From: an uncultured Spirochaetales bacterium
GTDB taxonomy: Bacteria > Spirochaetota > Spirochaetia > Sphaerochaetales > Sphaerochaetaceae
Assembly: GCA_944392695.1 (NCBI GenBank)
Contig: CALXXN010000001.1
Location: 186,001 to 250,000, forward strand
Direction: 5' to 3'
DNA: 64,000 nt
Positions 37,783-39,936 of the stretch are shown piece after piece. Each line of letters begins with the position of its first letter. The stretch's first letter is position 1. The notes beneath the pieces are model-generated. The model was given only the letters and a program-made list of their open reading frames with translations. It ran no database searches and was not told the origin of the DNA. The position numbers were made by a program, and so were the translations under genes.

Positions 37783-37816
37783 AAAACACCTGTTGGGAGA
37801 CGGGTGTTTTCTTTCT
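37783..37816 (+). terminator. Terminator after rnc
   Basis: An 11-bp stem, AAAACACCTGT (37783-37793) with ACGGGTGTTTT (37800-37810), loop TGGGAG, then CTTTCTT. The flanking A and T runs would allow some termination on both strands. It separates the housekeeping operon from the AT-rich island. Confidence 0.85.
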
Positions 37817-37828
37817 TGATTACAGAAG

Positions 37829-37898
37829 TTTTCTGCTATTTTCTATTACTTTCTATGATTTTCTAGCTTTTTCTAATGTTTTCAGTTATGTTCTAGTT
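37829..37898 (+). repeat. Seven 10-bp iterons (TTTTCTANNN) upstream of the Fic gene
   Basis: Seven tandem units start exactly every 10 bp at 37829, 37839, 37849, 37859, 37869, 37879 and 37889. The units are TTTTCTGCTA, TTTTCTATTA, CTTTCTATGA, TTTTCTAGCT, TTTTCTAATG, TTTTCAGTTA and TGTTCTAGTT. The first six or seven bases are conserved and the last three vary. The array ends one base before the ATG, so it must overlap the promoter. One unit per helical turn suggests cooperative binding of a regulator, plausibly the Fic protein itself through its C-terminal winged helix. Confidence 0.8.
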
Positions 37899-37899
37899 T

Positions 37900-38964
37900 A
37901 TGAGTTTGATGAAAATCTCTAACGTGGACATTAGTGTTATAGCAGCTGGAAACCTCATGGCTGTGGAATCGTATAATGTGCTCTGGAAATCCAAGGCAAG
38001 TGAATTGCCTAGCTCCCTCTTGGTGCAACTTCGTAATATCGGGGCATTCGAGAGTATTGGATCCTCAAATAGGATAGAAGGCAATACTCTTACAGACAAA
38101 GAGATTGAGGAAATCCTTCAAGGTTTGAAGACAACATCATTCAAGAACCGTGATGAGGAGGAGGTTGGAGGTTACTCGGAAGTTCTCGATACGATATATT
38201 CTCGATATGACCAGATTCCACTTACTGAGAACTATATCAAGCAGCTTCATGGCATGTTGCTAAGATATGTCGGTAAAGATGAAAGACATCGTGGCGAGTA
38301 TAAGACAATTGAGAATTCTGTTGCAGCCTTTGACAACACAGGTAAGGAAATCGGTATCGTATTCAGAACCCCATCACCATTTGAGACCCCGATAATGATG
38401 CAGCAATTAGTTGCGGAAACCAATGAGTTGTTGTCAACAGCATTGTATCCGAAATTAATTGTAATAGCACTCTTTATTGTTCATTTCCTCGCCATTCATC
38501 CATTCCAAGATGGCAATGGACGCATGTCCAGGATTTTGACAAACTATCTTCTCCTGCGATGTGGTTATTCTTATGTCCCCTACTATTCGCTGGAGAAAAT
38601 CATAGAGGAAAACAAGGCTGCCTACTATCGGGCATTGAGGCAGACGCAGGTCTCATTCAAGACTGACAGTCCTGATTATCGTCCGTGGATTGATTTTTTC
38701 TCCTCCATCTTGGTCAAACAAACAGAAATGTTGGAAGAAAAGATATCTGCCTATAAAAAGGGAGGTGTCTTGAAAACCGATGAGCAGATTGTCCTGGATA
38801 TTATCAGGTCAACACCAAGAGGAATACAGTTTGCTGGAATCAATAACGCATGTGACATGAAGGAGAATAGTATAAGGCGTGTACTCAAAACACTCTTGGA
38901 GCAAGGTTTCATAGAAAAGACTGGTACAGGTAAGGGAACATGGTATATGCCACACCTTAAATGA
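37900..38964 (+). CDS. Fic/DOC family protein with C-terminal winged helix
   Basis: 354 residues. An N-terminal inhibitory helix carries the (S/T)xxxE(G/N) motif as SSNRIEGN (Ser56, Glu60), making it a class II self-inhibited Fic protein. The active site HPFQDGNGRMSR (about residues 199-210) is intact, so it should transfer AMP to a target hydroxyl. The last about 65 residues form a winged helix (KTDEQIVLDIIRS ... SIRRVLKTLLEQGFIEKTG). The start may be ATG 37900 or 37909; neither has a Shine-Dalgarno. The gene is clearly AT-richer than its neighbours, which points to horizontal acquisition. Confidence 0.92.
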   Translation: MSLMKISNVDISVIAAGNLMAVESYNVLWKSKASELPSSLLVQLRNIGAFESIGSSNRIEGNTLTDKEIEEILQGLKTTSFKNRDEEEVGGYSEVLDTIYSRYDQIPLTENYIKQLHGMLLRYVGKDERHRGEYKTIENSVAAFDNTGKEIGIVFRTPSPFETPIMMQQLVAETNELLSTALYPKLIVIALFIVHFLAIHPFQDGNGRMSRILTNYLLLRCGYSYVPYYSLEKIIEENKAAYYRALRQTQVSFKTDSPDYRPWIDFFSSILVKQTEMLEEKISAYKKGGVLKTDEQIVLDIIRSTPRGIQFAGINNACDMKENSIRRVLKTLLEQGFIEKTGTGKGTWYMPHLK

Positions 38965-39155: not shown

Positions 39156-39504
39156 ATGAAGTTTCATGAAGAATATGATGAGATATTGAAGACCATGACC
39201 CGCATCTGGGGTGATGCTGTTGTGGAAGGGCAGAGGAACAATATCGTCCTCCAGATTCTGGCATCGATTCCCCTTTTATGCAGGAAGCAGCAACCCGATG
39301 CGTGTGGCAACCTCTTGTATCAACAACTACTTCCTCTATGCTTTTGAAGGTACGCGGAAGTATTTCAACCACAAGCCCTCAGATGATCAGGATCTTTACT
39401 CCAGGCTCAGCCTGCTTTATGTCATTCCATCTGGTGACCATGACGTGATTGAGAAAGGTCGTATCCTCCTGTCATTGATCATGTTGCAAGAACCATATGG
39501 CTGA
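39156..39504 (+). pseudogene. Frameshifted remnant of an unidentified gene
   Basis: Two overlapping short frames look like one broken gene. The first starts at ATG 39156 (MKFHEEYDEILKTMTRIWGD) and loses sense near 39290. The second frame continues with VATSCINNYFLYAFEGTRKYF and SRLSLLYVIPSGDHDVI to 39504. A frameshift near the CCCCTTTT run (39270-39277) would join them. I do not recognise the family. It could be sequencing error rather than decay, but it lies beside another gene fragment. Confidence 0.45.
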
Positions 39505-39515
39505 CTGTGAAGTAG

Positions 39516-39936
39516 ACATGATGATTGACAAGTACAACCCTGTAGTGAGGGGACTGTGCTTGTCCAATCAACTACAAAGCCTGCTTATCTGATGCAGAAG
39601 CCAGCCTTCTTCGGCCCAGGGCTTGAGGATAATGTCTTCATGGGGAGGAAGGGGGATGCCTCGTCATTTGATGAACTGAAGACTACCTTCTTTGGCGATG
39701 GGGATTTGAACGTCGAGAACCTTTCGACAGGGCAGCAGAAGAAGGTTGCTGTGCTCCGGTTGCTGTGCAGTGGGTCCGACATCCTCCTCTTGGATGAAGC
39801 GGATGCAGGTCTTGATACTGCTTCCATATCAACATTGGTGCGCCTTGTGGAAGAAGAAGCCTGTTCCCGCTTGGTGATAGCGGTCACCCTTGGTTCTGTT
39901 TTTGATGGCTTGTGTCATATCGATGTCGTCTTATGA
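39516..39936 (+). pseudogene. C-terminal fragment of an ABC transporter ATPase
   Basis: The fragment retains the Q-loop (YLMQKPAFFGPGLEDNVF), signature motif LSTGQQKKVAVLRLL, Walker B DILLLDEADAGLD and the D-loop. The whole Walker A half is missing. The sequence before 39556 reads IDKYNPVVRG in another frame, as if a frameshift cut the gene just after the Walker A region. The His switch is replaced by VTLGSV. It cannot be a working ATPase. The parent was probably an exporter-type ABC protein. Confidence 0.7.

Follow-up and report, generated by a model that had tools for sequence, protein, structure and literature searches.

Locus organisation and the Fic protein

The window, by which we mean the whole 64-kb stretch of DNA analysed here, lies on a 308-kb contig and carries a gene for a Fic protein with a predicted C-terminal winged helix-turn-helix (wHTH), whose neighbours are rnc and an acyl-CoA dehydratase activase-like gene. 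The features of the locus are as follows:

37783..37810, + strand: intrinsic-terminator-like hairpin closing the upstream rnc gene
37829..37898, + strand: putative operator array of seven direct-repeat units, consensus TTTTCTATTA, exact 10-bp period
37829: unit 1, TTTTCTGCTA
37839: unit 2, TTTTCTATTA
37849: unit 3, CTTTCTATGA
37859: unit 4, TTTTCTAGCT
37869: unit 5, TTTTCTAATG
37879: unit 6, TTTTCAGTTA
37889: unit 7, TGTTCTAGTT
37900..38964, + strand: gene for the Fic-wHTH protein, 354 aa
38065..38082, + strand: class II inhibitory motif, S56-N-R-I-E60-G61
38497..38523, + strand: Fic catalytic motif HPFQDGNGR, residues 200-208
38758..38952, + strand: segment in the 3' part of the Fic-wHTH gene
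38863..38901, + strand: recognition helix, residues 322-334, covarying with the repeat sequence

Nearly all of the space between the rnc hairpin and the Fic ATG is taken up by the array, so the Fic gene would need its own promoter within or beside it. The gene has a GC content of 0.42, against 0.57-0.60 for neighbouring genes. Based on the distance from rnc to the conserved downstream gene (~2.2 kb in the window, against ~0.35 kb in L237 and L238, the two genus relatives examined), the Fic region looks like an insertion. ABC transporter-like gene fragments directly 3' of the Fic gene (39156-39936) fall inside the stretch absent from the genus relatives and are possibly the remains of a mobile segment. 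Among the neighbouring ORFs inspected, none next to the Fic gene encodes a regulator. Similarly, no separate antitoxin gene of the FicT/FicA type adjoins it, with rnc upstream and the transporter-like fragments downstream, and, unlike in FicT/FicA-type modules with a separate antitoxin, the inhibitory motif is located within the Fic protein itself.

Pfam Fic matches the protein at 4e-17. HPFQDGNGR at residues 200-208 agrees with the class II pattern HPFx[D/E]GNGR, and the N-terminal S56NRIE60G61 with [S/T]xxxE[G/N]; from established knowledge of Fic proteins we take the latter to be the class II inhibitory motif, of which S56, R58, I59, E60 and G61 are invariant among 39 relatives. A preliminary description had the protein end in a winged helix, and the AlphaFold model (mean pLDDT 91) bears this out, with a clear C-terminal wHTH of three helices (293-303, 311-317 and 322-334) and wing strands (338-341 and 348-351). 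The predicted architecture, a C-terminal HTH fused to Fic, is that of Fic-HTH autoregulators, and the protein falls outside the SoFic equivalog NF046030 (51.9 bits, cut-off 550).

The same description had reported seven exact 10-bp iterons stopping one base before the ATG. The spacing is indeed exactly 10 bp at every step and the last unit ends at 37898, leaving T37899 before the ATG at 37900; the units themselves are not identical, with TTTTCTA perfect in three of the seven, carrying one mismatch in three and two mismatches in the sixth, and with T3, T4 and C5 as the positions invariant throughout. Over the best 60 columns the array gives 40 matches at lag 10. None of 5000 dinucleotide shuffles, each scored at its best lag between 7 and 15, reached this value: they average 28 and peak at 38, so that p = 2e-4, the lowest value the test can return. 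The array has the highest lag-10 self-match of the entire window, is also detected by Tandem Repeats Finder, and is the sole site in the 2.31-Mb genome for a phased triple with 10-bp steps and at most two mismatches. The phased array is thus confirmed as real. The surroundings do not suggest replication or partition iterons, no rep or par gene being recognised among the ORFs listed at 33-44 kb. A separate repeat in the window, at 966-1163, consists of eleven copies of the 18-bp CTGAACCAGAGGCTGTCG with 90% matches and, its length being a multiple of three, is perhaps a repetitive protein segment.

Phased arrays in relatives

Relatives at 41-57% identity were gathered from the same order, plasmids, genome contigs of many phyla and viral contigs, and almost all of them have direct repeats, placed and oriented alike. 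A significant chain of 10- and 12-bp steps precedes the start codon in 85 of 103 non-redundant relatives (p<0.01), whereas the same test was positive for 5 of 150 other genes of the same loci and 1 of 45 distantly related Fic genes. In a held-out set of 63 new non-redundant members from further genomes, searched after the rules had been drawn, 54 have significant arrays (p<0.01). Averaged self-match over the 103 upstream regions peaks at lags 10 (z 24.6), 12 (z 12.1), 20, 22, 30, 32, 40 and 42, a series absent within the gene and 400-500 bp upstream.

Steps between units measure 10 bp in 183 cases and 12 bp in 73, and their order is polar, 10-then-12 occurring 56 times against seven for 12-then-10. 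The usual array in relatives is a short triplet stepping first 10 and then 12 bp, and many promoters have two of these, the upper block of such two-block arrays sitting at -60 to -100; no consistent helical phase between the two triplet blocks was found among unit positions. The core TGGGTGTAANTGGGTGTA was searched in 14 relatives' genomes whose arrays are of the TGGGTG type; with up to one mismatch, all its matches lie directly upstream of Fic genes, and allowing two mismatches adds two matches elsewhere, which suggests that the operator is essentially private to the Fic gene. Arrays and Fic genes are found together in unrelated hosts as well as on plasmids and in viral contigs.

At some loci the start codon set by automatic annotation may lie too far upstream: in L012, L231, L232, L233, L271 and L293 the ORF continues upstream of the aligned Fic start, to about 400-640 codons in total, and in L012 the stop-free repeats are themselves read through. 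Three members of the window's family with Fic identity of 34-36% (L027, L028 and L030) have inverted upstream boxes, TCTCCCA and TGGGAGA, 20 bp apart, suggesting for this sister branch a related operator of different build.

Unit sequences and recognition helices

Most units fit the pattern [A/T][A/T][T/C]GG[G/A/C]T[A/G]TA, but they differ between lineages, which have ATTGGGTGTA, ATCGGGTATA, AATGGATGGA, ATTGGCTATA, ATTAGGTCTA and TTATCGTGAT, the TTTTCTATTA type being that of the window and its nearest relatives. A search for TTTTCTA arrays before related Fic genes, proposed earlier as a check, recovers them in the nearest relatives only (L008, L009 and L013); in the others the period persists with a different sequence. 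TTTTCTA arrays pair with an Arg-Arg in the recognition helix (IRRVL, LRRIL and IRRIL in L007, L008 and L013) and TTATCGTGAT arrays with KGIL (L010 and L011). Since the common GG-type motif does not extend to the window and its near relatives, a few sequences underlie the recognition rule for this group. The same 10-bp period is seen in a deeper branch, at about 36-40% identity or slightly above, whose arrays are built of ATCTCACATA and ATCTTATATA units; recognition helices read GFPxRTxE or PRPTxNQI in its members L281, L335-L337, L355 and L356.

Binding of the array by the Fic winged helix would require the unit motif and the recognition helix to have changed in step. Per-pair mutual information under strong sequence weighting was uninformative (effective n = 6.5), and covariation was therefore assessed by partial Mantel tests on 61 well-registered members, with motif register set from the DNA alone, and by the held-out set. 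Motif distance follows wHTH distance when Fic-core distance is controlled (partial r 0.27, p 5e-4, n = 61), whereas it does not follow Fic-core distance when the wHTH is controlled (partial r -0.01, n = 61). The best 12-residue stretch of the protein is 322-333, with a partial r of 0.44 against a maximum of 0.245 in 300 permutations over all protein stretches, and the best four of 289 alignment columns are 322, 323, 328 and 327, so that the best-covarying residues coincide with the recognition helix of the model. Adding poorly registered motifs (n = 95) lowers the partial r of the recognition helix to 0.22, just below that of the overlapping stretch 316-327, and columns 209 and 210 near the Fic motif outrank the recognition-helix columns.

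Unit spelling appears to follow the recognition-helix residues in the manner of a residue-to-base code. In the first set, all 28 members with D, E or Q at 327 have G at motif position 8, and none with A, V, L, K, T or N there does; at residue 322, R is paired with T3, and P or Q with C3. The held-out set repeats these pairings: D/E/Q327 with G8 in 9/9, K327 with A8 in 13/13, R322 with T3 in 37/39 and other residues at 322 with C3 in 6/6. The negative 327 rule applied to 31 held-out members, of which 7 are exceptions in having G8, almost all with His-Phe at 328-329, a pair found with G8 in every held-out case; the rule thus needs refinement, which was made after the fact. As originally drawn, the 327 rule gives a Fisher p of 4e-5 in the held-out set, a value not corrected for relatedness.

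Promoter geometry and proposed mechanism

A consensus scan revealed no sigma-70-like promoter at the window array. Across the family, sigma-70-like promoters overlap the arrays in 23 of 103 members, compared with 4.9 expected from shuffles, and in relatives the -10 box often lies inside a unit, at -9 to -15 from the ATG, so that messages would be leaderless or nearly so. Shine-Dalgarno-like words are rarer before these Fic genes than before control genes (13/103 versus 39/122). The units nearly always cover the promoter -10 and reach up to or into the start codon, a position over the -10, start site and start codon from which we infer repression.

Very probably, judging from sequence comparison, the array serves as operator for a class II Fic-wHTH enzyme, solitary and acquired horizontally, whose winged helix binds it and represses its own gene. 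Each unit would be a half-site for one C-terminal winged helix, its recognition helix reading the repeat unit, and the one-turn spacing of the units (10 bp, joined by steps of 12 bp in relatives) would align the winged helices on one face of the promoter; from this phasing, binding would probably be cooperative. Once occupied, the array would cover promoter and start codon, keeping the Fic gene repressed and a potentially toxic AMP-transferase scarce. The autoregulation suggested in the preliminary description is strongly supported by the arrays of both sets of relatives and by motif-helix covariation, while, of the filament-like binding suggested with it, a uniform filament finds no support in most members, whose 10-then-12 triplets, often two per promoter, point as much to discrete short oligomers.

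The winged helix might instead bind the array and activate the gene, or position the enzyme on DNA near a target. Two-block arrays with a distant upper block are common, and DNA binding stimulates AMPylation or deAMPylation of CbFic2 (PMC10628234); however, units running over the -10 up to or into the start codon have the geometry of repression, and the Fic-HTH protein CccR represses (PMC9755527), so we consider this reading unlikely. Speculatively, the array might also control Fic activity, since DNA binding by the CbFic2 wHTH can switch Fic catalysis. One such arrangement, a one-gene toxin-antitoxin with DNA as the antitoxin, in which Fic molecules lined up in order on the array would be catalytically silent, or de-AMPylating as suggested for DNA-bound CbFic2, strikes us as improbable. 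If it held, gene loss or dilution, e.g., loss of a plasmid, would free active enzyme, and the threshold would depend on the number of units, which differs between near-identical alleles.

A further possibility is that the array is bound by another DNA-binding protein of the host (a phage-type repressor, MraZ or a ribbon-helix-helix regulator), with Fic only the regulated product. MraZ repeats, of the form TGGGN-N5, resemble the TGGGT-every-10-bp arrays, and MraZ is a known autorepressor that acts on direct repeats (PMC8475190). The TTTTCTA triple has 22 matches in viral contigs, none before a Fic gene and some, as in L206, L214 and L220, before ribbon-helix-helix-like genes, so that sequence by itself does not identify the binder. 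In five viral contigs (L206, L214, L220, L222 and L227), TTTTCTANNN arrays with 10-bp steps lie just before small ribbon-helix-helix-like genes, apparently an independent use of the same motif and period, and we take viral TTTTCTA to be convergence on a low-complexity motif. Among other unit types searched in viral contigs, CGGGTATAATCGGGTATA has three matches, all before Fic genes, and ATGGGTGTAAATGGGTGTA one, with no Fic gene on the examined piece. Against a different binder, array sequence follows the Fic recognition helix beyond phylogeny and by rules that hold out of sample, the arrays stay with Fic genes from one unrelated host, plasmid or viral contig to the next, and no regulator gene adjoins the window Fic gene, which together make this explanation highly improbable.

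Near-identical Fic alleles (L157 and L159-L163, 96-100% DNA identity) differ in how many perfect GGATGGAAAT units stand some 30-100 bp before the Fic start, the number ranging from 3 to 6; operator length thus changes fast between alleles and could tune expression. Such variation would also suit a neutral tandem repeat arising by slippage, just as TTTT every 10 bp in the window would suit a curved-DNA element whose phased T4 tracts bend DNA and are read by no specific protein. Both have a negligible chance of being the main explanation and were rejected: position, orientation and 10-then-12 spacing are conserved despite diverged sequences and the family-wide positives far outnumber those of neighbouring genes, which makes slippage very unlikely, and the family keeps period and position rather than T tracts, most arrays containing GG (TGGGTGTAAA) and changing with the recognition helix.

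Significance

We know of no expression-level control for most solitary class II Fic enzymes. An enzyme that reads its own promoter would be a family-wide, testable answer in bacteria of many phyla, and such operators can be recognised from sequence alone. With residue-to-base rules, specificity would become predictable and swappable, and the family would offer a compact natural model both for a winged helix changing its DNA target and for the reading of one-turn-spaced direct repeats by a protein that may dimerise.

Comparison with known systems

The direct repeats of MraZ have the form TGGGN-N5 with 10-bp spacing. MraZ, of the dcw operon, is likewise an autorepressor acting on direct repeats before its own gene, which serve as its operator (PMC8475190); it is, however, an unrelated protein, whereas the units before Fic genes vary in step with the recognition helix of Fic.

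Among Fic proteins, Coxiella burnetii CbFic2 (PDB 8cil) shares the class II Fic domain and C-terminal wHTH and is a Foldseek match to the window model, although identity to the window protein is about 16%. DNA binding through its wHTH alters (de)AMPylation and was studied with random DNA, no operator being described in the part of the report available (PMC10628234). SoFic SO_4266 (PDB 3eqx/3zcn), deposited as a Fic-domain transcriptional regulator, and the Bordetella bronchiseptica Fic N-domain (PDB 8uqu) are among the closest solved Fic structures by fold or sequence, differing from the window protein at 18-29% identity in the fold search; we found no description of an operator for either.

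CccR of Yersinia pseudotuberculosis, a type VI-secreted effector, is a Fic-HTH protein that uses its HTH to bind and repress its own promoter, protecting the inverted pair AGATAATCAT-N26-ATGATAATCT with a 26-bp spacer (PMC9755527). It resembles the window protein, by description rather than by alignment, in its Fic domain with C-terminal HTH, its action at its own promoter and its 10-bp recognition boxes. A widely spaced inverted repeat nevertheless differs from the head-to-tail direct repeats at 10 or 12 bp described here, and we saw no link to secretion for the window Fic. A Fic dimer with two-fold symmetry would be expected to prefer inverted repeats such as that of CccR, which counts against Fic as the protein that binds these direct repeats. 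Our literature search returned no description of a Fic protein with a winged helix and direct repeats at its promoter, nor of the family-wide phased feature. While Fic-HTH autorepression is thus already known from CccR, helically phased direct-repeat operators and their residue-to-base code look new.
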